Under the pieces are notes generated by a model. That model was not told where the DNA came from. It searched no databases and saw nothing but the letters and a program-made list of their open reading frames with translations. The translations under genes and the position numbers were made by a program. From contig CM026567.1 of the NCBI GenBank assembly GCA_015143295.1, positions 7,830,416-7,894,415 of the forward strand: DNA of 64,000 nucleotides. The letters are read 5' to 3'. Of the stretch, positions 1 to 54,926 are shown piece by piece; positions within the stretch are counted from its first letter, which is position 1; every line of letters starts with the position of its first letter. This stretch comes from Tetracentron sinense. Its lineage: Eukaryota; Streptophyta; Magnoliopsida; Trochodendrales; Trochodendraceae.

Positions 1-3000
1 GCTCTTGGAGCTTGTTTTAAACCATAGAGGGCCCTTTTTAGTCGATAAACTTGATCAAGGTGATGTGGATCTTCAAACCCTTTTGGTTGTTCCACATAGA
101 CTTCTTCATGTAGAATGCCATTCAGAAAGGCACTCTTAACATCCATTTGAAAAAGTTTGAATTTCATATTACAAGCCACAGCTAGAAGAATTCTTATTGA
201 TTCTAGTCTGGCTACAGGAGCAAAAGTTTCATCGAAGTCAATACCTTCAATTTGGGTATATCCTTGTGCAACTAACCTAGCCTTATTTCTTATGATAGTA
301 CCTTTTTCATCAGATTTGTTCTTGAAAATCCATTTGGTACCTATCACATTTGTATTATTAGGCCTAGGTACTAAATACCAAACATCATTCCTAGTAAACT
401 GAAGTAACTCTTCTTGCATTGCATTTATCCAATTATCATCTGCAAGAGCTTCAGCTACATTCTTGGGTTCAAAAGATGAAGTATAGCAAATGTAGCTAAC
501 TTCATTTTCAATTTGTTTCCTCGTTCTCACTCCACTTTCAACATCACCAATAATATCAGTGGAGGTGTGAGGACTCATGACCCTAGGATGTGTAGGTTTT
601 AATGGAGATGTTTGCTTATCAATAGGTGAAGTTGAAATAATTTCAACATCTTCATTTTCAGCACTTTCATCATCCTCACATTGCACATTTTCAACACCAG
701 AGTCATCCACAATTACATTTATGGACTCCATAATTGTAGAGGTTCTCAAGTTATACACTCGATAAGCTCTACTGTTGGTGGAATACCCAAGAAATATCCC
801 TTCATCACTCCGGGATTCAAATTTTCCCAGTTGCTCTCTATCCTTAAGGATATAGCATTTACTTCCGAATTCTCGAAAGTACTTTACACTAGGTTTCTTG
901 TTATTCCACAACTCATATGGGGTTTTCCTTGTTCCAGGTCTTACAAAAACTCTATTAACTATATAGCAAGCAGTGTGAACTGCCTCAGCCCAGAAATGAG
1001 AAGCTAGATTGTTGCTATGAAGCATAACTCTAGCCATCTCTTGGAGAACCCTGTTCTTCCTCTCTACTACACCATTCTGCTGAGGTGTAATAGGTGCAGA
1101 AAATTCATGTTTGATACCAGACTCATCACAAAAGTCATTGTACTTAGAGTTTTCAAACTCCTTTCCATGATCACTTCGAATTCGAGTGATTGGGCATCTT
1201 TTCTCATTTTGAATTTTCAAGCAAATACTTTTGAAATTGTCAAAAGCATCGGATTTCTCTCTTATAAATGCCACCCAAGACATTCTAGAGAAATCATCAA
1301 CCATGACTAGGATGTATCGCTTTCCACCTAGACTTTCAGTTCTTGTAGGACCCATAAGGTCCATATGAATTAATTCCAGTGGATATGAAGTAGCAATACT
1401 TGAAGTCTTCTTATGTGGGGTCCTAATTTGTTTACCAATTTGACATGGCCCACACACAGCAGTAGAAGGCTTTCCTAGTTTGGGAACACCTCTCACAAGC
1501 TCTTGCTTAGAGATTTTACATAGGTCTTTGAAGTTCATGTGACCTAGTCTTCGGTGCCACAAATCAACCTCCTCAATTCTAGTCTTATAACAGACATTTG
1601 AGGGAATAGTACTGGGAGTTAAGCCGTAGCAATTGTCAGTGGTTCTCAATCCTTCTAGAACACACTTACCTTTACCATTAATGACTAAGCATTTATTTTG
1701 GGTAAAGTGCACAGCATGATTATCATCACATAGTTGACTTATGCTAATTAAATTAGCTTTCAGTCCTTCAACAAACAAGGCATCTTTCAATTTAGGTATG
1801 CCTGGTGAATTGATGATACCCTTTCCTTTGACTAATGACTTGCTTCCATCACCAAAAGTAACAGTCCCATCAGGACAGTCCTCAAATTGAATAAATAAGG
1901 ACTTGTTACCTGTCATATGCCGAGAACACCCACTATCGAAGTACCACATTTCTGTGTTTTGGGCTTTCAAGGCAGTATGAATGACAAAGCACTTAAGGTC
2001 TTCCTTTCTCACATACACAGTCTTTAAACTTTGTTTAGATCTTTGATCATTAATCTGTGTAGTAGAGACCTTTTTCCTTTTTGTCCTCCTTGACCTTTTT
2101 CTGTTTTGTTCAGTTCTAGTTTTGTGATAAGTCAAATTATTTCCTCTTGAATAATCATTTGGAATAAATTGACCAGTCCTTGTCCTAGAGATTTGAGCAA
2201 TTCTGTTAACATCATCGCTCAACATTCTAGACTTTTCAGCTAGAACCTGAATCTGCCTTTGAAGAGTCCCTTGACTCAGATTTTGGTTCCATGAACCATT
2301 TTGGGGAGCTCTCCTAAATGCATTACAATTAGGTCGAATGTGACCTCTCACACCACAAAAGTGACATGTGGGTATGAATCTTGGTAGAGGAGGAAGATTT
2401 CTTCTAACTGGAATTTGATTCCTTAAAGCATTCACTCTAGGAGCTGTATTTCTCGGCTTTACAATATTTGTATAAGCCTTAGTACTTGATGTAGAAGGTA
2501 AATTGTCTTTGGATTCAGAATGTATTGGCTCAAACACTGCACTAGCCATTGTTCCAACAGCTAAAGGACCAGTTGGTGTGTCAACATGTCCTATCCCAGA
2601 TCTACTAGAATTTGATCCATACTTTCTGACTAATTCATCTAGACAGCTGGTGTTACCAAACATTCTCACTTCTTTTTCAAGAGTATAGACCTTCTGAATC
2701 AAGTCAGTCTTGTCTTTAAGGGTAATTTGGTGTTCTTTTTCAAGAAATTTCACCTTATCAACAAGAGAGACTTTAAAAGTTTCCAGCTCCATTTGCAGAG
2801 TTTTTAACTCTTCAATTTCTTTCATGGAAGTGTCTCTATCATTTTCTAATTTTCTGACCACATTAGTCAATGAGACATTCTCTTCCAAAAGACATTGAAC
2901 TTTTATAACAAATGCTTCTTTTTCATTTTCCAACTGACTAACTAGTGCACTCTTCTCTTCTGCTACTAGTTTACAGATATCTCTTTCATTTTGAATGAAT

Positions 3001-4260
3001 TTGAGTTTTTTGCTCAAAGAGATTTTTGTTTTAGTCAGTTTTAAACTTTCAGCATACAACTTATCATAAGTTGTTTTCAAATCTTCATCACTTTCAGAGT
3101 CAGTTTGACTCTTCTGTAAGTCATCACTTGACTCAGTATGAATACTTTCATCACTTCTATCCTTTTCATCAACCGCAGAGGTAGTCTCAAGAATCCCAGA
3201 TAGGGAAACAGTGAAAGCCGTATGATTTCCAGTATCTTCATTTGAAGAGGAACTGTTCGATTCTTCATTCTCGGAATCACTGTCATCCCAACAGGCATTC
3301 ATCACCTTGCCCTTACTCTTCTTCTTGTTAGGACAGTTAGGTGAAATATGACCGAAGCCATGGCATTCATAACATTGAACACCTTGGGATTTCTTGTCGC
3401 CACTTTTGGAATTTTTCTTGTTTTCCCAGGGCTTAGACTTTGACTTATCAAAAGATTTTCCTCCCTGTTTGGGATTAAACCTCTTTTTCGTTCTAAAAAA
3501 TTTTCGAAATTTTTTAACGAAAAGAGCCATTTCTTCCTCATTCATTTCTCCATCACTGTCATCCTCATCCAAAGTTTCCTTGATGGTTTTCAAGGCTAAA
3601 GATTTATTCTTCTTGGATGGACGTAGATTGAGTTCATAGGTTTGGAGTGATCCAACCAATTCCTCAATCTTCAGAGAGTCAACATTTTTACTCTCTTCGA
3701 TTGCAGTGACTTTGGGTTGAAATCTCTCTGGGAGAGATCTAAGGACTTTTCTAACTATTTTGGACTCAGATATTTTCTCACCTAAATTGAAACTAGCGTT
3801 GACAATGTCACTAAGTTTTGCATAGAATTCATCAAAAGTGTCATTGTCGTCCATGTTTAAATGTTCAAATTTGGTGGTTAACATTTGGAGTTTTGAGATT
3901 TTAACAGTGGTAGTACCCTCATGGGTAATTTCAAGAATGTCCCAAGCCTCCTTTGCTGTTTCACATGAAGAAATTCGTCTGAATTCCTCAGCAGTGACTG
4001 CAGTAAAGATAGCATTGAGACCTTTAGTGTTCCATCCACTTGAATCAAGCTCTTCTCTGGTCCATTCATCAGAATATTTGACGACAGTCAAATCACCTAC
4101 AGTTTTTACGGGCGTAGTCCACCCATTCTGTATAGACATCCAAATTCTCTCGTCAATTGATTTGAGAAAGGCTCTCATTCTGGCTTTCCAGTATGCATAA
4201 TTATTTCCATCAAAAAGTGGGGGACGAGAGACGGATCCTCCTTCTCTTAGAGTACTCATG
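1..4260 (-). CDS. copia gag-pol polyprotein, open to the window edge (partial)
   Basis: One frame of 1420 codons runs from the ATG at 4260-4258 to position 1; segments I translated along its length hold no stop. Approximate residues: gag/UBN2 capsid 1-230; CCHC knuckle near 291-305 ([14 protein letters not shown]); coiled coil 390-550; second CCHC near 631-645 ([14 protein letters not shown]); protease near 770-785 ([13 protein letters not shown], active Asp about 775); GAG-pre-integrase near 895; integrase HHCC then catalytic Asp near 965, Asp near 1022 (RSDHGKEF) and Glu near 1065 (NGVVERKN); RT fingers from about 1310, ending at LKQAPRA at the edge. The RT YVDD box and RNase H lie outside. 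The start is chosen as the first ATG after the primer site, opening MSTLREGGS as in E3. This is the only element here with no visible lesion, so it could be autonomous. Confidence 0.9.
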
Positions 4261-4312
4261 ATCACGGATAATACAGGATCACACTTAAGGGATTAGCCTT
4301 ATCAGTGAACTC

Positions 4313-4324
4313 GCTCTGATACCA
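4313..4324 (-). promoter_or_regulatory. E1 primer binding site (initiator Met-tRNA)
   Basis: The minus strand reads TGGTATCAGAGC two bases inside the LTR boundary, the usual copia primer site complementary to the 3' end of plant initiator methionine tRNA. The same 12 bases recur in E2, E3, C1 and G1. Confidence 0.92.
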
Positions 4325-5006
4325 ATTGAAATTTATCCAGATCAATGATCTCTAAGACCTAGAGGGGGGGTGAATAGGTCTATCTAATAATTTCTAACCA
4401 ATTTTAATTTTTCAATTAATATGTTTAAAAATCAATGATTAACTCAATCAGACAATCCACACAAATCAAACACAGACGATTTTTACGTGGAAAACCCTAA
4501 CGGGAAAAAACCACGGGACCTTGTCCAGCAATAAACTTCACTATGAAAAGATATCAAGTACAAGATAAGACCTTACCAAAACAGAAACTATGTTCCTAGG
4601 TATAGACTCTTACTCTTGATTTCCACGAACCAGCAGGTTCGATCTCCGCCTTAGCAGCTTCAGTTCCACACCGACCAAATCTTTTCAAGCAACTTCAAAT
4701 CCACGATCACACACGATCGATCTCCTTCCACGAAGGCTCCGGATCAAACACCGGACACACACACAAGGTGTAGGGTTGTGAATCAATTTAGTAAATTTCA
4801 AACCCTAGAGGGATCTCATACAGATCTGAGATCACACAATGCAAGATCAAAGATTTTAATCTATACTTGCATTCTCTAGGATCTAAGAAAGAGGAGGGAT
4901 CACAAAGATCTAATTAAAAACAATTAGAAAAACCCTAGAAGAGTTTCTCAGACCTCTACTCTTTCAAAAATTATCAAAGACACGAATTAGGTCTCTCAAA
5001 AGTTGT

Positions 5007-5015
5007 TTATATAGG
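5007..5015 (-). promoter_or_regulatory. E1 LTR TATA box
   Basis: CTATATAAA on the minus strand, about 44 bp downstream of the palindrome array and well upstream of the conserved R/U5 block. Position and context fit the core promoter of the element. Confidence 0.65.
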
Positions 5016-5058
5016 GTTAAAAAAAGAATCCAGAAAAAGAAAAATTCTTTTTACGGGG

Positions 5059-5243
5059 ACCGATCGATCGGTGCTCACAACCGATCGCTCGGTTCACAAC
5101 CGATCGATCGGTTCTAATGACCGATCGCTCGGTCTTAAAACATCTCTCTGGAAATTTTCCCCATACAAATATTTAGTCCAGTCGATAGCCACCGATCGCT
5201 CGGTAGGCCACCGATCGATCGGTCGCAATACCGAGCGATCGGT
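5059..5243 (-). repeat. E1 U3 palindrome array (7 x ACCGATCGMTCGGT)
   Basis: Seven 14-bp sites begin at 5059, 5080, 5099, 5120, 5191, 5210 and 5230, alternating ACCGATCGATCGGT (perfect palindrome) with ACCGATCGCTCGGT or its reverse. Spacing is 19-21 bp, about two helical turns. A spacer at about 5143-5175 splits them four and three; on the minus strand it contains GTATGGGGAAA and CCAGAGAG. The same cassette in the same sense occurs in the gypsy G2 LTR at 54742-54926. An enhancer role is inferred from its place just upstream of the TATA box. Confidence 0.85.
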
Positions 5244-5559
5244 TGAGACAGAATTTTTGCCAAAATTAATTCATTTTATTTTTATTTGATTCAACTAAGA
5301 TCAAATAACTTTGGTAGGCTTAAATCTATCCTCCTAGGTATTTTTAGAGTTATCTAAGTCAAATCAAACCTAGGTAGGGGTCTCTAAGTCCATTACCTGT
5401 CTAGATCCGGAGTAGAACCTTTTTCTTCTCTTTCTTCTATCTTCTTTAAGCTTTAGCTCTTCTCTTCTTTTCTGACAAGTTGAACATGATTCGAGGACTC
5501 GACTCAACTGACCTATCTAATGATCACGGAATTTGCCAACACCTATTTAGGGATTTACA

Positions 5560-8685: not shown

Positions 8686-9332
8686 GAACTAATAACAACA
8701 CTTGATCACTACAATAACTCTTATTGATCCCTCATGCATTGTTTTTTATTTCTCACTCACTCACATACTTAGAAATCCCCAAATTACTCTTGAGCTTATT
8801 CAACTTCATTCTCTTTTAAGAAACTTTATCAGAGTTTGTACTTCACTCTTATCCAGCTCATTGAATGAGCTTTTCTTTTCAGATTTTCAAATCCAAACTC
8901 ATTTTTTGAGGTTAGTCAAGAATCTAGGATTCTTGTACTGAAGCTCCAACTTCAGTTTTATCAGGAGAGGGAGGTGCTCTTGAAAGGTTTCAGCTCGGCC
9001 TAAAGAAGAGCTTGTAAAGGTTGTATCTCGACCTATAAGAGAGATTATAGAGGTTTGGGCTTCACCTATGAAGGAGTCTGTGCGATTAAGGAATTGTGGT
9101 GAATCCTCTAGCTGGGAACATGAGGTGGTGAGTAGGCTGGATTGCTGAACCTCATGACCAAATCATTGTGTTTGTTTCTTCTAACTCTTATCTTGTACTT
9201 TCAACACTTTTTTTGTTTAATCTTGTGTTGTAAATAATTTTTAATTCTGCACCTTAGACTTAGAGTCCATAATTTTTAAATCTGCTAGAAACCTTATTCA
9301 CCCCCCCCCTTTAGGGTGACCTGGCTAACAAT

Positions 9333-15454: not shown

Positions 15455-15913
15455 TGGAGAATGCCAAGGTTGGTGATTTGAACGGCAAAGACTGGAATCA
15501 CCCTATTTTTACATTGAGCTCGGATCTTAGGAGATGCAGTATGATGGCATATATACATGCAGTGCAAGAAATGGTGAGTGCAATGAAGTGGTACGGTCAC
15601 TACTGGGGAGAGTGAGTAGTTCAGTTTACTTACTGGAGATTTGATGGGTGTAAGGATGGCACGGCCCGGAGGTGTTGGCCAAAGGGATTTGATCAAGTTG
15701 ATCGGAAAGACACACAGGGTGTCGAGAACACACAGGGTGTTAAAAGGGACATACGAGTGACGTACACTGTAAAGGTACACACGGGATATCAAGGACACAC
15801 AGGGTGTCGAAAGGAGGACATGTAGGTGGTATACACTATAAAGGTACACACGAGATGTCATGTAATTTACACTGTAAAGGTACATATAAAAAGGGTGGTG
15901 TACACTGTAAAGT
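15455..15913 (-). other. T1 3'UTR, distal part with start of tandem repeats
   Basis: No gene seen. 15455-15680 matches the start of the T2 3'UTR at 61179-61400. From about 15720 the 69-bp-type repeat seen at 22255 begins, and is cut at 15913 by E2. Confidence 0.7.
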
Positions 15914-17241
15914 TGAAAAATCACTCGGTGAACCCCAAATAAAATATTCGAGTTGAGAACTCACAAACCCAAGGGGGGATGGCTAGCTTTCCCTATAATT
16001 CTTTCTACCCTTTTTAAGATTTAATAATTAAATTATAAACTAAGGGAAAATAATAATCAAGTGCGGAAAAGGAAAACAAGCAAACCACAACACAAGGTTT
16101 TTTACGTGGAAACCCCTCCGGGAAAAACCACGGGACCTAGTCCAGCAAAGAGATATCACTAAGACAAAGTCAACAAGAACTTACAAGACTCGAACTTGAC
16201 TCCTTCAGACTCGACACTACGATCCTTCAGTTCTTAGTCCTCCACCCCTCGAAAAGTCATCACGTACCCGTAAGTCCTGTAATCAACCGCAGTCGCTCGT
16301 ACTTCTCTTAGATCTCCACAACAACCACGATCCTTCTCGGATCGATCTCCTTCTACGAAGGCTCCGGATCACAAACACCGGCCAAAGACACACACGGGTC
16401 GGGATTGTCAAATTAATTTTCTAACAATCTCTAGAGGGATCCTAAAACCATGAAGATCACACAATGCAAGAGCTAAGAATAGAAACGTTATTCTTGCATT
16501 CTCTAGAGAGGTTGTGAGAGGAGGGATCAACTATAATCAATGAAGAATAAAAGAAACCCTAGGAGGGAGTTCTCCAGCCTCTACTCTCACAAACTAATAA
16601 GATCTTTTTGAATTAGGTCAATAGAATTCGTATTTATAGATTCCAAAGAGTTTGTATTTGAATAAGACTCGATTTTTTGCACTGAAAGATCTATCTAAGG
16701 TGCGCACCGATCTATCCATGCAAAGCACCGATCTATCCAACAAAGCACCGATCTATCCATCAAAGCATCGATCTATCCAACAAAGCACCGATTTATCCAT
16801 CAAAGCACTGATAGATCAATTCCTATGTTGATCGATCTATCCTTCATTACCAAGGATAGATCCTTCAAAATTTAACTCTCTGGAAAAAATCCTCATACAT
16901 TTTCTTACACCACCGATCTATCCAACATGGAGGAGGATAGATCCTTCATTCCATACTTAGCCAATTTCGAGTGTTTTGAAAGGCTTGAATACAATAACCT
17001 TGTTTATGGAATTATATTAACCTCCTAGGTTGATAAAAAGGTGTTCTAAGTCAAAAACCAACCTAGGTAATGGGTCACTAAGTCACTTACCTTCCTAGAT
17101 CCGGAGGTGATACTTGATGTAGATTTCTTCTCTTTTCTTCGGCTTTTTGAAGCTTTACCAAGTATGACAAGTTGACTTAAAAATGACTCCACTTAGTCTT
17201 ACGTTTTGATACATAATTAGCCAAGATATTTTGGACTTACA
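15914..17241 (-). repeat. E2 3' LTR
   Basis: TG/CA-bounded, followed on the plus strand by the reversed polypurine tract. TATA (minus CTATAAATA) at 16631-16639. The palindrome-related array is at 16705-16945. The R/U5 block near 16100-16140 is shared with E1. Confidence 0.92.
16705..16945 (-). repeat. E2 U3 array (CACCGATCTATCC, 20-bp phased), 3' LTR copy
   Basis: Copies of CACCGATCTATCC begin at 16705, 16726, 16746, 16766, 16786 and 16806, a 20-21 bp period. GATCGATCTATCC and GGATAGATCC half-sites follow. The spacer at 16876-16903 (CTCTCTGG ... CCTCATACAT) matches the E1/G2 spacer. It lies about 65 bp upstream of the TATA box. The 5' LTR copy is at 21719-21960. Confidence 0.85.
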
Positions 17242-20926: not shown

Positions 20927-22254
20927 TGAAAAATCACTCGGTGAAGCCCAAATAAAATATTCGAGTTGAGAACTCACAAACCCAAGGGGGGATGGCTAGC
21001 TTTCCCTATAATTCTTTCTACCCTTTTTAAGATTTAATAATTAAATTATAAACTAAGGGAAAATAATAATCAAGTGCGGAAAAGGAAAACAAGCAAACCA
21101 CAACACAAGGTTTTTTACGTGGAAACCCTTTCGGGAAAAACCACGGGACCTAGTCCAGCAAAGAGATATCACTAAGACAAAGTCAACAAGAACTTACAAG
21201 ACTCGAACTTGACTCCTTCGGACTCGACACTACGATCCTTCAGTTCTTAGTCCTCCACGCCTCGAAAAGTCATCACGTACCCGCAAGTCCCGTAATCAAC
21301 CGCAGTCACTCGTACTTCTCTTAGATCTCCACAACAACCACGATCCTTCTCGGATCGATCTCCTTCTACGAAGGCTCCGGATCACAAACACCGGCCAAAG
21401 ACACACACGTGTCGGGATTGTCAAATTAATTTTCTAACAATCTCTAGAGGGATCTTAAAACCATGAAGATCACACAATGCAAGAGCTAAGAATAGAAACG
21501 TTATTCTTGCATTCTCTAGAGAGGTTGTGAGAGGAGGGATCAACTATAATCAATGAAGAATAAAAGAAACCCTAGGAGAGAGTTCTCCAGCCTCTACTCT
21601 CACAAACTAATAAGATCTTTTTGAATTAGGTCAATAGAATTCATATTTATAGATTCCAAAGAGTTTGTATTTGAATAGGACTCGATTTTTTGCACTGAAG
21701 GATCTATCTAAGGTGAGCACCGATCTATCCATGCAAAGCACCGATCTATCCAACAAAGCACCGATCTATCCATCAAAGCATCGATCTATCCAACAAAGCA
21801 CCGATCTATCCATCAAAGCACTGATAGATCAATTCCTATGTTGATCGATCTATCCTTCATTACCAAGGATAGATCCTTCAAAATCTAACTCTCTGGAAAA
21901 AATCCTCATACATTTTCTTACACCACCGATCTATCCAACATGGAGGAGGATAGATCCTTCATTCCATACTTAGCCAATTTCGAGTGTTTTGAAAGGCTTG
22001 AATACAATAACCTTGTTTATGGAATTATATTAACCTCCTAGGTTGATAAAAAGGTGTTCTAAGTCAAAAACCAACCTAGGTAATGGGTCACTAAGTCACT
22101 TACCTTCCTAGATCCGGAGGTGATACTTGATGTAGATTTCTTCTCTTTTCTTCGGCTTTTTGAAGCTTTACCAAGTATGACAAGTTGACTTAAAAATGAC
22201 TCCACTTAGACTTATGTTTTGATACATAATTAGCCAAGATATTTTGGACTTACA
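20927..22254 (-). repeat. E2 5' LTR
   Basis: Same length as the 3' LTR (1328 bp), with TATA (minus) at 21644-21652 and the 20-bp-phased array at 21719-21960 with spacer near 21890. Confidence 0.92.
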
Positions 22255-22960
22255 AAAGGTACCTACAGATTGCTGAGAAAATACGGGATGTCACAAAGAG
22301 GACATATGGGTGGTGTATACTGTAAAGGTATACACGGGATGTCGAGGACACACAAGGTGTTGAAAGGAGGACATGCAGGTGGTATACACTGTAAAGGTAC
22401 ACACGGGATGTCAATGAATGTACACTGTAAAGGTACATACAGAAAGGATGGTGTATATTATAAAGGTACCCACAGATTACTGAGGACACACGGGGTGTCA
22501 CAAAGAGGATATGTGGGTGGTGTACACTGTAAAGGTATACACGGGATGCCGAGGATACACAGGGTGTTGAAAGGAGGACATGTAAGTGGTATACACTGTA
22601 AAGGTACACATGGGATGTTGAGGAATGTATACTGTAAAGGTACATATAGAAAGGGTGGTGTACACTGTAAAGGTACCCACAGATTGCTGAGGACACACGG
22701 GGTGTCATAAAGAGGACACGCGGGTGGTGTATGCTGTAAAGGTACACACGGGATGCCGAGGATACACAGGATATCAAAAGGAGGACATGTAGGTGGTAAA
22801 CACTGTAAAGGTACACACAGGATATCGAGGAATGTACACTGTAAAGGTACATACAGAAAGGGTGGTGTACACTGTAAGGGTACCTACAGATGTTGAGCAA
22901 TGTACAATGTAAAGGTACATACAGAAAGGGTGGTGTACACTATAAAGGTGCCACAAATGT
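22255..22960 (-). repeat. T1 3'UTR tandem repeat, 69-bp unit in a 207-bp higher-order period
   Basis: AAAGGTAC-starting segments of 69, 69 and 36+33 bp repeat with a 207-bp period at 22255, 22462 and 22669. Each segment ends in TACACTGT. Because 69 and 207 are multiples of three and the unit lacks stops in one frame, a 216-codon open frame (22900-22250) of repeated YLYSVHH-type residues appears; I regard it as a by-product. T2 has only a vestige of this repeat near 61460. Confidence 0.85.
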
Positions 22961-25139: not shown

Positions 25140-25734
25140 CTTTGATATGCACATTTGATTAATCCGGGATCCACCGATCGGTCTAATACTGCTCCTGACA
25201 TGTGTTGGGCGAGGCATTTACCTCTGACTGGTAGATTTGTGCAACTTTTCTGCAGTTGTTCGTCACTTTTTTGAGTGTCCGCTCTACTTCATGTTTCGAC
25301 AAACAAGTTGTCCCCCTGCTCCATGCATTGATGATGATGGGGCATTACGTCAGATGACTGGAGATGGGCTTGCCCCTTACGCTTGATTGCCCCCTATCCC
25401 TGGTGTGGCGAGGTCTTGACCTTTGCATTCAGAGTTGCTACCCCACTTTGTACAAGATGAGGTTTCTGGATGAGAATTTTGCTTTTTATCGTACTCTACC
25501 CCTGAGGATTATGGGTCTGATTATCTATTTAAGTGACCTCTTGTTAAAGTAAATGAGCTTAAGAAGTGTTCAGCTATGCTAGGCAAGTATGATGAAACTC
25601 TTGAGGAGAAGAGTGATTTTTCATTGAATTGAAAGAGTTGAACTCTGGACTAGACTCGTACAAGGGCTACTATAGCCAACTCTTACAGAAAGGAAATCCT
25701 AACTAGAACTGACTTAGATTCAACTTGGTTTTGA
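25140..25734 (-). other. T1 segment between 3'UTR and gag remnant
   Basis: In T2 integrase lies directly left of the shared 3'UTR (beyond 62880). Here that place holds about 600 bp without recognisable pol. A single ACCGATCGGT at 25178 is isolated. Confidence 0.6.
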
Positions 25735-29432: not shown

Positions 29433-31612
29433 GAGCTATAAGGGCGGATTCCCAAGACACTCACTTGGGATATACCCCTCATGGGTGTGAAAGGTTATGT
29501 TTAAGAGTCGCCACCTATTCATTCAGAAGGGATAAGTCCCTTGGGTTTGGATAAGGTCTTGGTCTGTGAGTGAGATCAGGGTAAGGGGTTCGGTTAAGCC
29601 CGGGGAAGGTGTTGAGCACCCTGAGACTTCCGTTTTACAACGGTTCCGTACTCCCCAGGTTTAAGCCAACTAAAGTTCAATCTTGTTCAAAATGTCAGAG
29701 TATTTAAGTTAACACTAATCCAAGAAAGGGAAAAGCTAACTGGGGTCGAACCCGGGTTGGGTTACCTACGTACTCACAGGGTGAGATCAGACCGAGAGTC
29801 ATTCTGGCACGTGAGCCTGTGCCAAGGCTAGGGGCGTGTGCGTTTGCACCAAGGGTGGCTAACATGGATTAGTCCGGTAGACTAGGGTTTGGTTGACTGA
29901 GGAGGGTCAAGTGCAAGGTATTCAAGCATGGTAGGCTTAGGGGTAGTCTGGTAGACTAGGATGGAGTCTGGCTAGGGTTAGGGTTGCTAACCGGGGTTAG
30001 GCCAAACTAACCATGATTAGGGTTTCTAACCACAGTTAAGGGGATGTGAGATTTAGCCCGTAAGCTAAGGGGAGGCCCGGTAGGCTGAAGAAAAGTCTGG
30101 TAAATTTGGTTTTTAGACCGTAAACCGAGATTAACTGCGATTAGGATTGCTAACTAGGGTTAAGGGGGGTTTAACTGTTGTTAGGATTGCTAACCAAGGT
30201 TAGTTTTATGGTCCAGCTGATTGTTTTAGGATTTTTAGATTAATTTCCCAAGATTTGTGAAGTTAAGGGGTGTTTAACCTGTGGTTAAATATTAATCGGA
30301 GGTGTATTTAGCTGTAGTTAAGGTTCTGGTAAAGTCCGAGGAGGGCCCAGGGGTCTAGGCAGGGCCTAAAGTGGCCTCCTACCAAGCCTGGGCCCCTGCA
30401 AAAGCCCATAATCAAAACAAAATTAATGTCGGTAATTGGACTACCGAAAATAAGAACAGTGTTTTTAAACTTAGCTTTTGCCCACTGTAACTAGGGTTAG
30501 GGTGTAACCTTGGGTGAACTGGGATCATGGGAGTGTAGAGGGTACTCTAGAGAGGGTTTTGATTCTAGTGTGGGCCCTAGGGGATGCTTGGAGTGGGCCC
30601 CACTGAGCCGCAAAGTCAGTGTAACAGATAGTGTATATTGGTGGCAAAGGTTTTACCGTCAATCTGAAAACAGACCAAAAGGGTATTGTCGGTAGAAGCT
30701 CTACAGGGCCAACCTAAGTAAGCTAAACAGGCTGCAAAAAAGGAAAATGCCAGGAATGGCGATACTGAGATTACCGCCATTCCTTGTTTTTCTCAAGAAC
30801 AGAGTTTCTGCCCATGGGGCTGTGCACCAAGGTAACCAGGGGTTCTACCATGATGTGAGGGACTCCCAGAAGTGGCATGGTGGATCTTGAAGTTCCAAGA
30901 ATGGTGATATACCCATAGGGGTTCACCACACCTATGGTTTAGGTGGGTGAACACTATTTTTTTACAAACTAAACACCAATAGTAAAGCAAATAAGCCCCT
31001 TGGAAATGATCAAGGGTTCACATTAATGATAAACCAAGAAAAAAAGAGGGTAGGGAAGTCCTTACCTTGATGCTCTATTCATCAGCCGAAGGTGGGGGAG
31101 CTGTGCATAGGTGGTGGTGCTACGGTGGTGGACTGTAGCAGTTGGGGAAGCTCAAGGTAGGTCCAAGGGAGGCCTGGCATCACGACCAGAGGGTTGAAGA
31201 GGGCTAGGGCCTGGGTTTTTGCAATAGAATTTCAACTATGGGTTATTTGCCGACCGTTTGAATGGTTGAGGGATACTGGGTTTTATAGAGGAGAGACCTA
31301 GGGACCTAAAAGGGATTAAAAGGAAGGTGGAGAAGGTGGTTGGACCCTCTGGAGGTCGAGTGGAAAGACTTGAAGGGAGAGTTGAGGTGAGGGTGGAGTG
31401 TGCAGGGCGTTTGCAGACTGCAAACTCGATCTCAGCTATTGGCGGTAGATAGTCTACCGCCATTTGCAAAACGAGCACAATTCATAATGTCTGTAAAGGA
31501 TCTACCGCCATTAGTAAAACTGGAAAATTCTTAATGGTCGGTAGACCATCTACCGACAATAAGGGATTTTGGTGAAATGGGCCTTGCTCATGCACAAACA
31601 GGTCTGGGGGTT
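29433..31612 (-). repeat. T1 5' LTR (truncated in U3)
   Basis: Begins next to the primer site and contains the GAGTCGCCACC block, GGGTAAGGGGTTCGGTTAAG and GTTGAGCACCC words typical of this LTR group, TATA (minus) at 31281-31289 and the CGGTAGA array at 31438-31558. It stops at CTGGGGGTT (31604-31612), where E3 LTR sequence takes over. About 260 bp of U3 are lost relative to the 3' copy. Confidence 0.8.
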
Positions 31613-32017
31613 ACTTGGGTCGACCCAAGTAACCTTCAGGGTCGACCTCACTTTTTCTCCTCTCTATCGTTTTTCACCATACAAAATGTGGGCTATTCAG
31701 GGTCAACCCCCAATGGTTAGAGTCGACCTTCGGGTGCATTTTATCCATTTTTCATTCCTTTAATCCTTTAATGCAATCCCCTATAACCCTATTCCTTTTT
31801 GATTTATTTTTCTTGATGATTGGGCATTTCCATGAGGAAACTTAGGGTCTTCTAGGTCTCTCTTACCATCCTACTTATTGAGCGAACTTTGGGGTGATGG
31901 AGCTTCAAGGTTCTTCAAGACTTCTTCTTCACATTGACTTCAAACCGGATGTAGACCTAATAGAACTATTACAACTTTTTGGGCTAGGAATTTTGCCAAC
32001 AAAACTTAGACTTTACA
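31604..32017 (-). repeat. E3 3' LTR fragment
   Basis: Plus-strand right edge CTTTACA (32017) is followed by a reversed polypurine tract. It matches 41165-41452 and 56968-57025 of the 5' LTR, including GGGTCGACCC sites and spacer ACCATACAAAATGTGGGC. The R/U5 half is missing because of the junction with T1 at 31604-31612. Confidence 0.82.
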
Positions 32018-32824: not shown

Positions 32825-34018
32825 CTAGTGAGACGCTTGCACCATGTAGGAAAGTGCATCAATCCAGCGATTGGTCGCCAAAAAACTCTCCTGACTAGCT
32901 ACTGCGTGGTAGTCCAGGCGTGCATGAAGATCAGTGGCGAAAGTAGACTGAGTAGCCGACATATCTGCGAGCATGGCTGCCATAGACTTAAAAGACAGGG
33001 GACCCATAGGGGCTCTAACATGGCTGGGAGAGGGACCGACAAACGTGGCCGAAGGAGCGATATCATCATCAATGTCATCCTCATGCTCAGGCATCGCAGA
33101 ATAGGACATACTACTGGTGAAGGTGCGAGCATAGATGGGTCCTAGAGAAGGCTTAGAATCCTCAAAAGAACGAGCCCTAATACCCTCAGCAAATAGGAGA
33201 TTGGTGATGAGGACACCAAAAGGAAGAGCGGTGCACTTTTAGGTCACAGCGACAGCTTGAAGGATTAGGTCAATAATGTGGGCACCAGTATCGATAGTGT
33301 CCCCAGTCATGACACTGTATAGAAATCGAGCCCGATCCACACTCAGAGTAGTAGAATGCTCCTTGGGATGAATGTTGGAACACATAATGAGGTGAAACAG
33401 ATGGCCCAAGTATGAAAGACTGGAGTGAAGCAAATGGGGATGAGGCCATTTTTTAGAGTGATCATTACAGAGATTGCTGGTCACCATAACCAAATCATGC
33501 TTATCCTCATCGGTGGGATAAAGATAAGGGTAATAGGCTCCCGGAACCCGAGGAGCACCAATGAAGAAGGCAATGACCTCCGGATTAATGGTAATTTTTT
33601 TACCCCTAACCTGAGTTTTAAAAGAAAAGATGCGATAATTGGCAGAATAAATATTCGTATAAAATTCCTGGACAAGGTCTAAACTGGCATAACCGGTCAA
33701 TTTTAAAAGGTCAGACCATTGGCAAGAGTTAATTATTTCCTCAAAACCAGGATGGGTGAAATCCGAAATAATAGTGGTCCTCTCAATGGTGACAACTTGA
33801 TTTTTAAGACAAGCATGATAAAGATGTTCATTCCCTGGGGTACGAAATCTCACAATTTCAGGCACAGTAGGAGTGTGGACTGGAGTTTTGCCCTTGGATT
33901 TGGCCGAGGGCTTCGAACTGGAAGCACCCATGGCTTTCTTATGGGTATCTGAGGGTGGAGGAACCCGAGTATGGATCGCACGACCCACATGAATTCCGTG
34001 GCCAGCATCATCCGATGT
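32825..34018 (-). pseudogene. Plant-transposon-type ORF (PF20167-like), one in-frame stop
   Basis: The frame opens next to the inner LTR, without a clear ATG (the apparent start at 33988 is GTG). It reads LVQEFYTNIY, FKTQVRGKKITINPEVIAFF and GAPRVPGAYYPY, which fit the putative plant transposon protein domain (PF20167, from memory): EFY, VRGK and an Ile-x-x-Phe segment. A TAA at 33241-33239 interrupts it; the same frame resumes with LPFGVLITNLLFAEGI, matching the usual LPFP-x-LIT end of the domain, then an acidic tail to 32825. Some 397 codons in all. Function of the family is unknown; it occurs inside LTR elements as gag-like or extra ORFs. N-terminal truncation at the LTR junction is likely. 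Confidence 0.6.
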
Positions 34019-35488
34019 TTAAATTGAGAATCTCACAAGTTCAAGGGGATGGTTAGGTTTCCATACAAGTCTATCTACCCTTTTTATGAATTAACAATTA
34101 AGTTATTAATTAAAGGTATGATGAATTTAAATTGCGAAAATAGAGAGAAACATCCAAACCATAACACAAAGATTTTTACGTGGAAACCCTTCTGGGAAAA
34201 ACCACGGGACCTAGTCTAGCCATGAGAATTCACTAAGACAAAGTAAACAAGAACTTACAAGACTCGAACTTGACTCATTCAGACTCGACACTACTATCCT
34301 TCAGTTCTTAGTCCTCTACACCTTGAAAAGTCATCACGTACTCACAAGTCCCGTGATCAACCACAGCCACTCGTACTTCTCTTTGTGTCTCGAAAACAAT
34401 CCATGAACTTCTGATCGATCTCCATCAATGATAGCTTCAGAATTCACCGACCAAATCACACATCAATGATCCGTCTCGGATCGATCTCCTTCGCAAAGGC
34501 ACCAGAACACTCTAGCAAAGGTGTTCTATCCAGAACGGATTAATGGTTTTATAAAAATTAACACCTAGATGGACTCCTTCAAAGGACAAGTCCAGACAAG
34601 CAAAATTGGAACTTTGGGCTTGCGATCTCTAAGTTGAATGCACTAACAAAGGGGGTAGAGAATAACAATTTCCATAGGTTTTATAACCTCTGGAGAAAGT
34701 TAAAAAAAACTCTCCACACTCTCCCAAAGTTGTTTTCCACGAGCTAGAAGGATTCACCATATATAGGGAACTCAAATCCATGGTATAGAAGTTGCTAAAA
34801 AGTTTAAAAACCAAAGAGGAAAGCAAAAAATCAATTTAGGCATATTTCCCATATCAAGGTTAACCCTGGGGGTCACTTGGGTCAACCCAACAATGCACTT
34901 GGGTTGACCCAAGTATCCTCTAGGGTCGACCCTCAAAATTTCAACATTTTGCCAAATTGCACCATAGTAATTTTTGGCTCTTTAGGGTCGACCCTCAATG
35001 CCCAGGGTTGACCCTGAGGTGAAAAGTGAATTTTAAACTTCATTTTATCTCTTGGTCCCTTCACAAAAGTTGTAGCTCTTTTTGACGCAATCGATTTGAT
35101 ATATTATAGAGCGAAATCTGAGCTATAGTTTGGGAGATATGCCACCTACAAGCAACCTTGGTTTTTTGAAAAATTTCATCATTTTTAACATATTTTGCAC
35201 TACTTATCTCATCGCCTAGGGTCCGTATGATTAGTTTAAACTGATGTCTACCTAAGGTATCATATTATGGTTAGTCTAAGTCAATTCCTACCTAAGGTCA
35301 CATGGTATCTAGGTCATTTACCATCCTATGAAGGAAATGATCAACCGAGTCTTCAACGGTTCTTCATGGTCTTCAACTTCACTTGTTTGCAGATGCTTGA
35401 CGGCAAAGACACAAGATACACACCTAGACATGTAGACTCACTTGTTTTGACACCGGAATATGCCAACACAAAAAACATAGACTTTATA
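34019..35488 (-). repeat. Inner LTR of a sister copia family inside E3
   Basis: Shares the R/U5 block with E1 and E2 (ATTTTTACGTGGAAACCC, CCACGGGACCTAGTC). TATA (minus CCTATATATGG) at 34757-34767 and GGGTCGACCC/GGGTTGACCC sites at 34863-35010. The right end ATAGACTTTATA (terminal CA mutated to TA) is followed by a polypurine tract. The left end lacks about 35 bp and no primer site precedes it, so it acts as the 3' LTR of the pol/gag block to its right. Confidence 0.78.
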
Positions 35489-40919: not shown

Positions 40920-41452
40920 TGAAATTCCTTATTTCAATGTACTATTTTACCTAGAGGGGCTCAAAGTACTCTCAAAAGTCTCTAAGGAATAGCTTCTAGG
41001 GATTGGGAGAGATCCCATATATAAAGACATAAAACCAAGGGTTTAGAAACTACTAAATACGAATTTAGAAGGTTTTTTCATATCAGGGTCGACCCTGGGG
41101 GTTCCCTGGGTAGACCCACTGCAGCAATGATCACAATATAAGCAAAACCCCATATTAGGGTCGACCCTGGGGGTTACTTGGGTCGACCCAAGTGTGCACT
41201 TCGGTCGACCCAAGTAACCTTCAGGGTCAACCCTCACTTTTTCTCCTCTCTGCCATTTTTCACCATACAAAATGTGGGCTATTCAGGGTCGACCCCCAAT
41301 GGTCAGGGTCGACCCTGGGGTGTATTTTATCCATTTTTCATTCCTTTAAGCCTTTAATGCAATCCCCTATAACCCTATTCCTTTTTGATTTATTTTTCAT
41401 GATGATTGGGCATTTCCATGAGGAAACTTAGGATCTTCTAGGCCTCTCTTAT
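40920..41452 (-). repeat. E3 5' LTR, R/U5 side (split by gypsy insertion)
   Basis: Starts at 40920 beside the primer site. Most of the R/U5 block present in E1 is deleted, so the TATA box (minus, 41016-41024) lies only about 100 bp from the LTR end. The array at 41088-41320 has GGGTCGACCC-type sites, among them CTTGGGTCGACCCAAG, a 16-bp palindrome, near 41177, and the spacer at 41245-41273. It breaks at 41452 where the G1 LTR begins; the remainder is at 56966-57025. Confidence 0.82.
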
Positions 41453-41694
41453 TGTAGAGCCCCGGACCTTTTTACAGTTAATGAATGACACTCTCGTTGT
41501 CATTTTGCCCATAAAGATGTATAATCAATAAATAAGGAAGAAATTAGAAATTTTTGAAATGTCAGGAATGTTCCTTTTCGAATTACGAGCCCAACGCAAG
41601 TTGAATCATCAAAATTGGACAAACGGGTCAAAAGATATGGCCAAAACAGTCTGGACCTGCAGGAAATCGTAGCTCGGAAGACGCTAAGGACGTA

Positions 41695-42108
41695 CTCTGA
41701 TAACGTATTCGTTGTGCAATCGTCGTGCAGCAGATAACGTATTCGTTGTGAAATCGTCGTGCAGCAGATAACGTATTTGTTGTGCATCCGTCGTGCAGCA
41801 GACAACGTGTACGTTGTACAGCACAACGCGCACGTTGTACATAAGACAACAGCACAACGTGTTCGGCACTATCCACAACGGACAACGTGTTCGGCACTAT
41901 CCACAACGGACAACGTGTTCGGCACTATCCACAACGGACAACGTGTTCGGCACTATCCACAACGGACAGCGTGTTCTGCACTATCCACAACGGACAACGT
42001 GTTCAGCACTGTTCACAGCACAACGTGATCAGCACTGTTCACAGCACCACGTGTTCAGCACTGTTCACAGCACAACGTGTTCAGCACTGTTCACGGTCCT
42101 CGCGCCTT
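41695..42108 (+). repeat. G1 LTR tandem arrays (34, 28 and 26-bp units)
   Basis: First 3-4 units of about 34 bp with GATAACGTATTCGTTGTG; then near-palindromes such as ACAACGTGTACGTTGT; then five 28-bp units (ACAACGTGTTCGGCACTATC type) and four 26-bp units (ACAACGTGTTCAGCACTG type). Every unit has an ACGT core, and some read CACGTG. The 3' LTR has four and six units. The position is equivalent to the ACCGATCGATCGGT array in G2. Confidence 0.85.
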
Positions 42109-43007
42109 TACAGAAATTCCAGTAAGGGTATTACGGTCTTTTGGTCGGTTCACTCTTACCTTAAGAGTTTAACCCAAGCCTTTAGGGCATCATTCGACAC
42201 TTAGAGAGTTTGAGAGAATAGGAGAAAGGGGAGAAGGCGATTCCAAACCTAGGGTTTCCATTTTGGAGAGAAATCAAAGGGTTTTGAGACCCTAGATCAC
42301 TTCCAGTCCGGTTTTTCTTCAAGATCTCGGCTCAAGCTCGTGCGAAGCTCGTGTTCCAAGCTAGGACAGCAACTCACAGTCGTTTGGAAGAGGGATTTCT
42401 TCCTCATCTCTTCAAGGTCGGTACTTCTTGCTACCCTCCTAGTTATAGTTCCTCTTCTCCCTGTATTTCTTTCGATTTTCTTTTATTTACACATGTGCTA
42501 TGAGATGGATGGTTGTGAATGGTGAATGGAGATGGAATGGAATGGGCGATTGGATGCCAATGGTTGTATGTGATGAACAAATGGGGAAGGGCATTGTTCC
42601 AATAATGAACATACATGTATGATTGAATAAAACCCATCTAGAAAAGCATGTTGTAGGGTAAATCCATACTGAACACCCCATGTTTGATGAAATGCCAAGG
42701 TGAATAAAGTGAGCTGTAAATTAGTAAATGCATGCCTAATCAATTCTGAATATTGCTAGGGCCTATGATAGTGTGTTTCCTGCCTTCCCTAAATGTTATG
42801 AATATTACATTGCTCAATCATTGATGCTATATGTGTTGTGAAATTACCAAAATGTCATCTTTAAATTTAAATGCAAGTATGTACACGGTTCCCACGAGCA
42901 CGGCATGCATGGCATGATTTATCGAGGTTTTCAAGAACATGGTTAGAGGTGGGACATATCCTACGATATGTTTTACCTCGCTTTTCACAAGAAGACAAGA
43001 ACCAACA

Positions 43008-43165
43008 ATCCACGAGGGGTCTCCCCTCACTCACAAGTGCATATCATGAAGAAGGGCCTCCCTTCCCTCGCAAGTACATTCATATCATGAAGAAGGGTCT
43101 CCCTTCCCTCGCAAGTGCATTGCATAAAGAAGGGTCTCCCTTCTCTCTCAAGGCATCTCACAAGC
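43008..43165 (+). repeat. G1 LTR second repeat (GAAGGGTCTCCCTTC palindromes)
   Basis: Four copies of a roughly 37-45 bp unit, each with a palindrome of type GAAGGGTCTCCCTTC followed by CTCGCAAGTGCAT. Also at 53190-53340, and inverted at 44060-44200. Confidence 0.8.
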
Positions 43166-43277
43166 GCATCTCACAAGTACATCTTACAAGTGTATCTCAC
43201 AAGTTACATGATCACAAGCAAGCACGCATGACATGCATGATATGACACGACATACAAGAATCAAGCAAGATAGACAA

Positions 43278-45790
43278 TGTCGCGACCCAAAACCCACCCT
43301 AGGAGTTAGAGTGAACTTTGGACGACTAATCATGGATTACATGACTTGCTTGACAACCCAACCTGCAAAAACCCACGGAGCATATACAATAGAGGATATA
43401 AATAGTGGAAACATACTCTAACACAGCACAGCGGAAGACTACCAAACCTCTATGTATATACATACTCAAATCCAAGTTTATACAAAAAGTGATCAAAAGA
43501 AAGTGCGGACATGCCCGCCAAAATACATAAATCTAACTCTCATCTCACCCACAGCTAATCCACTCAGAATCTAACACCACCTACAGATAACCCTCTACGG
43601 GAGGTTCCTCCAAAGGCTCCTCGACGTACTCCTCTTCCACCCATGGACCAGGAGCACAGACATCAAATGGAGCAGCAGCTCCCTCAAAACCTGCCGACAT
43701 AAGAAGTACGGCTGAGCATGGAATACTCAGCGGGTACTAAATACTAACCAACAATTATAGCATAAAGATGGCAATACATAATCAGGAGCAATTCATATAT
43801 GTCAAACGGAAACAATTCATATCACACAAGGAAGTAAAGCAGTTTATAATCATGCTTGTATTTCGTAGAAAGCCGATAAAACCTCTTGAAAACATCGTGC
43901 ACTTGACTTGACTTGAAATATCTTTTTGTACTTGAAAGCTTGTTATGTCTATCTTGCTTGATTCTTGTATGTCGTGTCATGTCATGCATGTCATGCGTGC
44001 TTGCTTGTGATCATGTAACTTGTGAGATATCCTTGTGAGATGTCCTTGTGAGATGCACTTGAGAGGGAAGGGAGACCCTTCTTTATGCAATGCACTTGCG
44101 AGGGAAGGGAGACCCTTCTTCATGATATGTATGTACTTGCGAGAGAAGGGAGGCCCTTCTTCATGATATGCACTTGTGAGCGAGGGGAGACCCCTCGTGG
44201 AATGTTGGTTCTTGTTTTCTTGTGAAAAGCGAGGTAAAACATATCGTAGGATATGCCCCACCTCTATCCATCTTCTTGGAAACCTCGATAAATCATGTCA
44301 TGCATGCCGTGCTCGTGGGAAAACGTGTACATACTTGCATTTAAATTTAAAGATGACATTTGGTAATTTCACAACACATATAGCATCAATGATTGAGCAA
44401 TGTAATATTCATATCATTTAGGGAAAGCAAGAAACACACTATCATAGCCCCTAGCAATATTCATATTTTATTAGGCATGCATTTCCGAATTTACAACTCA
44501 CTGTATTCACCTTGGCATTTCATCAAACATGGTGTGTTCATTATGGGTTTACCCTGCAGCATGCTTTTCTAGATGGGTTTTACTCAAATCATACATGTAT
44601 GTTCATTATTGGAACAATGCCCTTCCCCATTTGTTCATCACACATAACCATTGGCATCCAATCCCCCATTCCATCTCCATTCACCAGTCACCATTCACCA
44701 TTCACCATTCATCCATCTCATAGCACATGTGTAAATGAAAGCAAATCAAAAGAAAAGAAGGGGAAAGAAGAACTATAACTAGGAGGGTAGTAAAAAGTAC
44801 CGACCTTGATCAAGTGAGGAAGAAATCCCCCTCCAAAACGACTGTGTAGCTGCTGCCCTAGCTTGGAGAACGCCCTCCACGAGTGCTTGAGCCGAGATCT
44901 TGGAGAAGAGTCGAGCTTGAAGTAATCTAGGGTCTCAAAACCCTTGATTTCTCTCCAAAATGGAAACCCTAGGTTTAGGAATCGCCCTCTCCTCTCTTCT
45001 TATCTCCCAATCTCTCTAAGTGTCGAAAATGAAGCCCTAAAGGCTCGGGTTAAACTCTTAAGGTAAGAGTGAACCGACCAAAAGACCATAATACCCTTAC
45101 TGGAATTTCTGTAAAAACACGAGTGCTGAACACGTTGTGCTGTGAACAGTGCTGAACACGTTGTGCTGTGAATAGTGCTGAACACGTGGTGCTGTGAACA
45201 GTGCCGAGCACGTTGTGTTGTGAATAGTGCTGAACACGTTGTGCTGTGAATAGTACCAAACACGTTGTGCTGTGAATAGTACCAAACACGTTGTCCGTTG
45301 TGAAGGGTGCCGAACCCATTGTACCGTTGTGTCGTGCATAGTGCTGAGCTCGTAGTCCGTTGTCTTATGTATAACGTGCCCGTTGTGCTATACAACGTAC
45401 CCGTTGTGAGCTGCACAACGTACCTGTTGTGAGCTGTACAACGGATGCACAACGTATACGTTATCGGAGTACGTTGTCTGTGCCTTCCGAGCTACGTCCT
45501 TAGTGCCTAACCGAGCTACGTCCTTAGTGCCTAACCGAGCTACGTCCTTAGTGCCTAACCGAGCTACATCCTTAGCGCCTTCCAAGCTGCGATCGCCTGC
45601 AGGTCCAGACTGTTTTGGCCATATCTTTTGACTCGTTCGTCCGATTTTGACGATTCAACTTGCGTTGTGTTCGTATTTCAAAAAGGAACATTTCTGAAAT
45701 TTCAAAATTTTCAATTTCTTCCTTATTTATTAATTATACCTCTTAAAAGGCAAAATGACAACGAAAGTGTCATGTATTAAGCATGAAAAT
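43278..45790 (-). repeat. Inverted LTR nested in the G1 5' LTR
   Basis: Starts TGTCGCGACCC, the reverse complement of the LTR end, and reads back through hairpin (43711-43731), palindrome repeat, and tandem array (45110-45580, in reverse) to within about 40 bp of the LTR start. It is more diverged from the plus-sense copies than those are from each other. The same left junction is present in the 3' LTR at 53459. The right boundary is approximate. Confidence 0.82.
43581..43700 (-). CDS. LTR short ORF, MSAG type (inverted copy)
   Basis: 39 codons from ATG at 43700 to TAG at 43583-43581, directly after the conserved stem-loop. It differs from the copy at 46014 at only two or three residues. It contains the core PFDVCAPGPWVEEEYVEE. 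No known domain; acidic and proline-rich. Retention of frame and core in G2 argues for constraint, but no function is known to me. Confidence 0.45.
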   Translation of the reverse strand: MSAGFEGAAAPFDVCAPGPWVEEEYVEEPLEEPPVEGYL

Positions 45791-45982
45791 GGTACTTTAA
45801 GTCAAGTCAAGTGCACGATGGTTTCAAGAGGTTTTATCGGCTTTCTACGAAATACAAGCATGATTATAAATTGCTTTACTTCCTTGTATGATATGAATTT
45901 TTTTCGTCTACCATATATGAATTGCTCCTGATTTATGTATTGCCATTGTTATGCTATAATTGTTGGTTAGTATTTAGTACCC

Positions 45983-46003
45983 GCTGAGTATTCCATGCTC
46001 AGC
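45983..46003 (+). promoter_or_regulatory. Conserved stem-loop in Tekay LTRs
   Basis: GCTGAG, nine bases (TATTCCATG), CTCAGC: a six-pair stem, identical in G2 at 56495-56515 and in the inverted LTR at 43711-43731. It ends 10 bases before the ATG of the short ORF. RNA role is inferred only. Confidence 0.6.
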
Positions 46004-46013
46004 CGTACTTCTT

Positions 46014-46133
46014 ATGTCGGCAGGTTCTGAGGGAGCTGCTGCTCCATTTGATGTTTGTGCTCCTGGTCCATGGGTGGAAGAGGAGTACGTCGAGGAGCCT
46101 TTGGAGGAACCTCCAGTAGAGGGTTACCAATAG
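46014..46133 (+). CDS. LTR short ORF, MSAG type (G1)
   Basis: 39 codons, ATG 46014, TAG 46131. It starts MSAG and has the core D-V-C-A-P-G-P-W-V-E-E-E-Y, shared with the 51-codon ORF of G2 (D-I-C-D-P-G-P-W-I-E-E-D-Y). It lies in the LTR downstream of the presumed promoter and upstream of gag (46796), so in the transcript it would be a leader ORF. No recognised domain, signal peptide or membrane segment. Alternative reading: GGCAG before the codons could be a splice acceptor and the segment an exon. Confidence 0.5.
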   Translation: MSAGSEGAAAPFDVCAPGPWVEEEYVEEPLEEPPVEGYQ

Positions 46134-46438
46134 GTGGTTGTAGATTCTGAGTGGATTAGCTGTGGGTGAGATGAGAGTTTATATTCATGTATTTTGGCGG
46201 GTCTGTCTGCACTTTCTTTTGGTTACTTTTTGTATAAACTTGGATTTGCGTATGTATATACATAGAGGTTTGGTAGACTTCCGCTGTGCTTTATGGTTAT
46301 GTTTCCGCTATAATGTCCTCTATTGTATATGCTCTGTGGGTTTTTGCAGGTTGGTTTGTCAAGTAAGTCATGAAATCCATGATTAGTCGTCCAAAGTTCA
46401 CTCTAACTCCTAGGGTGGGTTTTGGGTCGCGACAGAAG

Positions 46439-53683: not shown

Positions 53684-53685
53684 GG

Positions 53686-54529: not shown

Positions 54530-54741
54530 TGTAGCACCCCGGACTTTTTCATCCTTAATGAATAGCACCTTCGTAGCTAATTGGCCGTTTTTATAGTCTA
54601 ATTAATAAATAAGGGAGAAATCGGAAATTCTGAAACGTCAAAAATGTTTGTTTTCGAAAGACGGATCCAACGCAAGTTGAATCGTCGAAATCCAACGAGC
54701 GAGTCAAAAGATATGGTCAAAACAGTCCAGACATACAGAGC

Positions 54742-54926
54742 ACCGATCGCTCGGTCCAGTCAGCGATCGATCGGTCCATAACCGATCGATCGGTAGCTAT
54801 CGCACGGTCAGAAATTTTGTATGGGGAAATTTTCCAGAGAGTGAGTTTTTGACCGGTCGATCGGTCATAAACACCGATCGCTCGGTAGGCAACCGATCGA
54901 TCGGTCATAACCACCGATCGCTCGGT
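54742..54926 (+). repeat. G2 palindrome array (ACCGATCGMTCGGT)
   Basis: Sites start at 54742, 54762, 54781 and a decayed one at 54795; after the spacer, at about 54853, 54872, 54891 and 54913: 19-22 bp phasing. The spacer (about 54815-54842) has GTATGGGGAAA and CCAGAGAG. GGTAGCTATCG before the spacer corresponds to GGTGGCTATCG in E1 (minus strand). Confidence 0.87.

Follow-up and report, generated by a model that had tools for sequence, protein, structure and literature searches.

Introduction

The superfamilies of retrotransposons are usually seen as separate lineages, each of which has its own promoters. In the Sireviruses, the RM boxes are family-specific arrays of palindromes that occupy the upper LTR half and precede the TATA box, and a CGG-CCG signature is reported for 12 of the 13 RM boxes in the accessible sections of their description, with Tnd-1 being without the signature (Bousios et al., 2010, PMC2829016). 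Section 12 of that account gives CA/ATTGG/TATCAGAGC as the Sirevirus junction. In the gypsy superfamily, the LTRs of the Del elements contain a variable 5' CpG island, which eudicot Del elements do not have according to the parts of the study available to us (Cruz et al., 2014, PMC4029996). Chimeras produced by template switching have been described for LTR retrotransposons of the Triticeae (Sabot and Schulman, 2007, PMC1950507, in excerpt). Finally, the main palindrome of the maize Sireviruses is the commonest motif in the structured regions of Helitrons, which in the available portion of that study stands as an earlier hint of sharing across the orders of transposable elements (PMC10760457).

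Results

A palindrome cassette is common to a copia LTR and a gypsy LTR

Two LTRs that are located about 49 kb apart in the window, by which we mean the whole 64-kb stretch of DNA analyzed here, carry one 185-bp cassette, at positions 5059-5243 on the minus strand in the copia LTR E1 and at positions 54742-54926 on the plus strand in the gypsy LTR G2. Read in the sense of the element, the cassette consists of three ACCGATCGMTCGGT-type palindromes, a central spacer of 57 bp and then four palindromes. Each palindrome is 14 bp long, and the seven start at offsets 0, 20, 39, 110, 131, 150 and 171 in both LTRs. The spacer contains a 23-bp core, GTATGGGGAAAATTTCCAGAGAG in E1 (5144-5166, minus strand), and the G2 core (54819-54841, plus strand) is identical to it at 22 of the 23 positions. 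Ungapped, the cassettes are identical at 142 of 185 positions (76.8%), with no gaps.

A search of both strands of the window for ACCGATCGMTCGGT with at most two mismatches yielded 28 matches, corresponding to 14 sites, seven in each cassette, and none outside the two cassettes, where 0.09 were expected. The sequence-only reading had proposed a cassette common to a copia and a gypsy LTR, which is confirmed by the seven identical offsets and the 142 identical positions, and the two cassettes point the same way relative to their elements (E1 minus, G2 plus), as it had stated. At this threshold, its count of seven to eight sites per cassette becomes seven in each. The motif GCTATCG is present in both cassettes as described there, but its placement is corrected from ahead of the array to the start of the central spacer, after palindrome 3.

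In the same register beyond the outermost palindromes, the agreement between E1 and G2 is 3-13 positions per 25-base window, mostly 3-8, which is the background level. The LTRs are thus otherwise unlike, as had been noted from the sequence, with no homology extending past the array. That the two LTRs each built an equal array of sites for a host factor is hardly credible given the seven identical offsets, the 22 of 23 core positions shared at an equal place and GCTATCG beside palindrome 3 in both, although such convergence would account for palindromes and core being kept while most of the other spacer bases differ.

E1 is a Sirevirus-type copia element

Judged from its sequence features, E1 is a Sirevirus-type copia element. 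Its gag-pol open reading frame (3-4292, minus strand), which continues off the window, contains the Pfam domains Retrotran_gag_2, gag_pre-integrs, rve and RVT_2, as in Ty1/copia elements. Sireviruses are further characterized by a large gag that has a CCHC knuckle and a coiled coil, and by multiple polypurine tracts plus an inverted repeat near the 3' LTR; in E1, the translation has a knuckle-like stretch of 14 residues, and Pfam gave no zf-CCHC match. The 5' LTR (4327-5559, minus strand) has a 3' end, CA, that precedes ATTGG and the primer-binding site TGGTATCAGAGC (4313-4324, minus strand), and a 5' end, TGTAAATCC, that was placed by its likeness to the LTR E2; the other LTR and the 3' end of the element lie beyond the window. 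The junction CA/ATTGG/TATCAGAGC (4313-4335) is the Sirevirus junction and was also found in the copia LTRs E2, E3 and E4. A tRNA scan returned no matches.

Within the E1 LTR, the centre of the first palindrome is at position 325 and the TATA motif at 549 (CCTATATAAACA, 5008-5013, minus strand), which follows the last palindrome centre by 53 bp. The array thereby resembles the RM boxes, in which the palindromic repeats precede the TATA box and begin 200-400 bp from the start of the LTR. Since the palindrome ACCGATCGATCGGT has CCG...CGG in place of the CGG-CCG signature, we refer to the array as RM-like rather than as a strict RM member. The LTR has seven palindromes, as compared to at least eight copies per element for the RM boxes, with the rest of E1 cut by the window.

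G2 is a gypsy LTR in which the cassette occupies the place of another array

The features of G2 (54530-56965, plus strand, TGTAGC...GTGACA, with the ends read by eye) identify it as a Ty3/gypsy 3' LTR. The end of a gypsy pol open reading frame (53674-54438, plus strand) stops 91 bp before the LTR, its sole domain being SH3_Tf2-1 (E-value 6e-26), so that a gypsy-type integrase end adjoins the LTR, and a purine tract is located just upstream of it. Over about 1 kb, this reading frame has 75% DNA identity to the gypsy element G1, in which Retrotrans_gag, Ty3_capsid and Chromo domains were found, the latter at 25.3 bits against a cut-off of 25.1; the G2 fragment has no Chromo domain, and the reverse transcriptase is absent from G2. 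G2 may be a Del/Tekay-like chromovirus, as suggested by the length of its LTR. The assignment of the two LTRs to different superfamilies in the sequence-only reading is upheld by the open reading frame domains of E1 and by the SH3_Tf2-1 domain and the 75% DNA identity to G1 for G2. The G2 array is thus the same kind of array as in E1, but in a gypsy LTR, whereas RM boxes are carried by Sireviruses. Further downstream in the G2 LTR (55770-56311), a second tandem array with a period of 68 bp was observed.

For comparison, we used Ga, Gb and Gc, three LTRs of a single gypsy family, which align to G2 on each side of the cassette. The homology of the flanks ends at about 54735-54741 and restarts at about 54927, both points being no more than a few bases from the cassette borders. 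The corresponding slot in the three copies (Ga, 41662-42094, plus strand; Gb, 45122-45596, minus strand; Gc, 51822-52277, plus strand) is filled by 21-34-bp tandem repeats, most of which are of a CAACG type, and the best match to the core in these copies has 9-10 mismatches, which is the mean of the shuffles. The cassette in G2 hence occupies the place of the native array, and is not located beside one. Because Ga, Gb and Gc are without the core and hold another array, and because the flank homology breaks at the cassette edges, the most likely origin of the G2 cassette is the replacement of a native array by a Sirevirus module of the E1 type.

Satellites, MITEs and the ends of DNA transposons often contain tandem palindromes, and such a sequence could have entered the E1 and G2 LTRs independently, for which the Sirevirus palindromes in maize Helitrons would offer a parallel (PMC10760457, in part). 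We consider this highly improbable, since the 64-kb window contains no free-standing copy of the cassette, the cassette has the same slot and the same orientation and replaces an array in G2, and homologues in two further copia LTR groups occupy the matching part of the LTR.

Short words in common were seen at the cassette borders (CGGTC to the right; GCTCGG to the left in Ga and Gb). Gb (45510-45564) has a 24-bp repeat at the left end of its slot that contains GCTCGGT, a half-site of the E1/G2 palindrome, three times; these half-sites may be due to chance, to microhomology or to a trace of exchange. After Ga, an inverted and permuted LTR copy in the order A B A' B' was observed (41453-46434, inverted parts 43946-45793 and 45786-46434), which is perhaps a product of self-integration or inversion.

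Other copia LTRs share the scaffold with different palindromes

Two more groups of Sirevirus-type LTRs in the window, E2 and E3, share the scaffold and differ in palindrome sequence, which the sequence-only reading had missed. The palindrome is ACCGATCGATCGGT in E1 and G2, AAGGATCTATCCTT in E2 and GGGTCGACCC in E3. In the minus-strand scaffold E2b (21716-21959), the core is at 21889-21911, the palindrome AAGGATCTATCCTT at 21865-21878, and 20-bp repeats contain GGATAGATCGGT; the other LTR of the same element carries scaffold E2a (16704-16946, minus strand, core 16876-16898). The E3 scaffolds, all on the minus strand, are E3_5 with GGGTCGACCC palindromes (41090-41320, core 41246-41268), E3c with GGGTYRACCC palindromes and a degenerate core (34855-35018, core 34945-34967) and the damaged E3d (31600-31726, core 31660-31682). 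The 20-bp repeats of E2 join one half-site of each palindrome type, and E2 looks, from these repeats, intermediate between the types.

A MAFFT alignment of the whole copia LTRs set the E2 and E3 cores out of register with that of E1, and we therefore used an ungapped comparison anchored on the core. The best matches to the E1 core have one mismatch in G2, four each in E2a, E2b and E3_5, and six in E3d, as compared to 7-8 for the best of 200 shuffles. With nine mismatches, the E3c core alone is not above chance; its 61-bp block is identical to E3_5 at 42 of 61 positions, ungapped. The palindrome that follows the core has its centre 40 bp from the start of the core in six of the seven copies (E1, E2a, E2b, E3_5, E3c and G2), the exception being E3d, in which this palindrome is damaged. 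Upstream of the core, palindromes are located at -31, -50 and -70 in E1 and G2, at -22 and -42 in E3_5 and E3c, and at -41 in E2b. By palindrome sequence and geometry, G2 groups with E1; across the 61-bp core block, it is identical to E1 at 46 positions and to E2 at 41-42, which is a small margin.

The copia LTR region E4 (8740-9331, primer-binding site at 9333) has no core at four or fewer mismatches and no half-sites, despite its Sirevirus-type junction. The core pattern gave no matches in sets of virus and prokaryote contigs, which are uninformative on plants. Outside the LTRs compared, half-site matches are located at 25173 and 58165, the former coinciding with a lone 10-bp palindrome, ACCGATCGGT (25173-25182). 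E2 appears to sit within a 69-bp/207-bp satellite array (15710-15912 and 22255-22960), and an open reading frame of 259 residues (33239-34018, minus strand) adjoins the LTR region of E3c.

Palindromes and core are constrained relative to the spacers

Between E1 and G2, changes were observed at 7 of 98 palindrome positions and 1 of 23 core positions, as compared to 35 of 64 other spacer bases (Fisher P = 2e-11 for palindromes and 1e-5 for the core, each versus spacers). Of the seven changes in the palindromes, five fall on the central positions 6 and 9, with half-sites of either ACCGATC or ACCGAGC; G2 sites 2 and 4 have one further mismatch each. From three flank alignments, 1.9, 7.7 and 11.2 gap openings would be predicted for 185 bp, which are upper-side figures because the alignment scoring was gap-lenient, and none was observed. 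The observed/expected ratio of CpG is 1.9 in the E1 cassette and 1.81 in the G2 cassette versus 0.6 and 0.58 in the remaining LTRs. Among the other arrays, that of Ga is also CpG-rich (1.4), while those of E2b (0.69) and E3_5 (0.42) are not.

At the level of nucleotide sequence, these comparisons demonstrate that the E1 and G2 cassettes share a common ancestry. The suggestion that a module is shared without the LTR as a whole is borne out by the sharp borders, by the other native array in the slot of the gypsy relatives, and by palindromes and core that were kept amid far-diverged spacers.

Discussion

Origin of the cassette in G2

The best explanation, which we hold to be probable, is that the cassette is an upstream regulatory array of the Sirevirus-type copia elements, of which an E1-like copy moved into G2, and which would act as an activator in the form of double-stranded DNA. 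The E1-like version of the array would have moved into a Ty3/gypsy LTR, displaced the native array and become part of the G2 LTR, either by template switching between co-packaged RNAs or by DNA conversion.

Since three groups of copia LTRs have the scaffold and the gypsy family of Ga, Gb and Gc does not, movement from copia into gypsy is the more parsimonious direction, and transfer from a Sirevirus is likely when judged against this one gypsy comparator family. The sample comprises one copy of G2, one copy of E1 and one gypsy family, the array of which is clearly fast-changing, and with comparators from a single family there is room for a loss of the cassette in Ga, Gb and Gc. A reverse transfer, by which the E1 lineage would have obtained the cassette from a gypsy LTR, or a gypsy ancestor with a cassette that these copies lost, is nevertheless very unlikely, because the copia LTRs E2 and E3 have the scaffold, with palindromes of other sequences, which would call for several transfers or losses.

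Proposed function of the array

The copies suggest a scaffold plan of two to three palindromes, the 23-bp core, a gap of 10 bp and an additional set of palindromes at intervals of about 20 bp, which number four in E1, G2 and E3. In the copia LTRs, a TATA motif follows about 50-100 bp downstream of the array, as found in E1, E2b, E3_5 and E3c. No TATA motif was found near the G2 cassette, and promoter use in G2 therefore stays putative. From its layout, the array is most likely an upstream activating region that is read by a dimeric DNA-binding factor and a partner, because of the dyad symmetry, the tolerant centre, the fixed spacing and the fixed distance to a second conserved box. Each palindrome would bind a symmetric, dimeric factor as double-stranded DNA and the core would bind a second factor, with palindromes and core together activating transcription, and the gypsy element would thereby gain the activation pattern of the copia element. 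The helical phasing is not clean: it is coherent at 10.05 bp (R 0.95) and not at 10.5 bp (R 0.155) for E1 and G2, with 10.55 bp (R 0.86) for E3.

The palindromes might instead act as RNA, either as U3 hairpins in the genomic RNA, for packaging or strand transfer, or as hairpins from which host small RNAs originate, in which case the common cassette would reflect an exchange at the RNA level. The predicted folding is strong, with z-scores of -8.6 (E1), -7.0 (G2), -3.3 (E2b) and -9.2 (E3_5), and the variable centre, positions 6 and 9, would form the loop of a minimal hairpin. Moreover, the maize Sirevirus palindromes are small-RNA hotspots in the available parts of two studies (PMC5311732, PMC10760457). 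The z-scores do not separate RNA from DNA, as any palindrome array folds well, and hairpins need neither a fixed spacing nor a fixed 40 bp to a core that is not palindromic. We consider a role as RNA quite unlikely.

It is possible, if unlikely, that a fast-changing, sequence-specific factor, coded by the host or by the element, uses the scaffold as a portable docking platform and activates or un-silences the LTR. The copia groups kept the scaffold while the palindromes shifted (ACCGATCGATCGGT, AAGGATCTATCCTT, GGGTCGACCC), as a lock-and-key turnover like that of VANC and VANDAL would yield. If so, the gypsy element would hijack a copia activator, and both superfamilies would be part of one trans-acting network.

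With regard to the upstream activating region proposed above, the cassette in E1 and G2 suggests that retrotransposons can exchange promoter modules across their deepest divide, that between copia and gypsy. If true, such a bordered swap would make regulation tradable as a plug-in part, and would provide one source for the variable stretch in gypsy LTRs. A single array in two unrelated LTRs offers a natural experiment, and a scaffold with changing palindromes is a handle for finding a candidate factor that reads the Sirevirus arrays.

Comparison to known systems

In the literature searched, which mostly lacked subscription papers, we came across no description of the core scaffold, and none of a Sirevirus-type array within a gypsy LTR. 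The cassette is like the Sirevirus RM boxes in being a palindrome array upstream of a TATA motif that is CpG-rich in E1, and unlike them in being present also in a gypsy LTR and in having CCG...CGG rather than CGG-CCG in the E1 palindrome; the accessible sections of the RM-box account make no mention of a spacer core at a fixed distance of 40 bp (PMC2829016). In the available text on the Del islands, repeats and palindromes are not described (the strings "tandem" and "palindrom" have no occurrences) and acquisition from another superfamily was not found, unlike the palindromes and the transfer suggested for G2 (PMC4029996). The Triticeae chimeras likewise point to co-packaged RNAs as a route to chimeric LTRs, but in the part of that work available to us they concern slightly different elements and large complex insertions, not an internal swap across superfamilies (PMC1950507). 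Similar to the arrays studied here, the VANDAL motifs that are bound by the VANC anti-silencing proteins are non-coding repeats with a family-specific sequence and cognate sequence-specific binding; VANDALs are, however, DNA transposons with a known binding protein coded by the element, unlike the arrays in E1 and G2 (PMC12844716, in excerpt).

Palindrome arrays in Sireviruses, variable CpG-rich stretches in Del LTRs and template-switch chimeras among related elements are thus already in print. To the sequence-only reading, the present comparison adds the type of the donor, the likely direction of the transfer and the array that was displaced.
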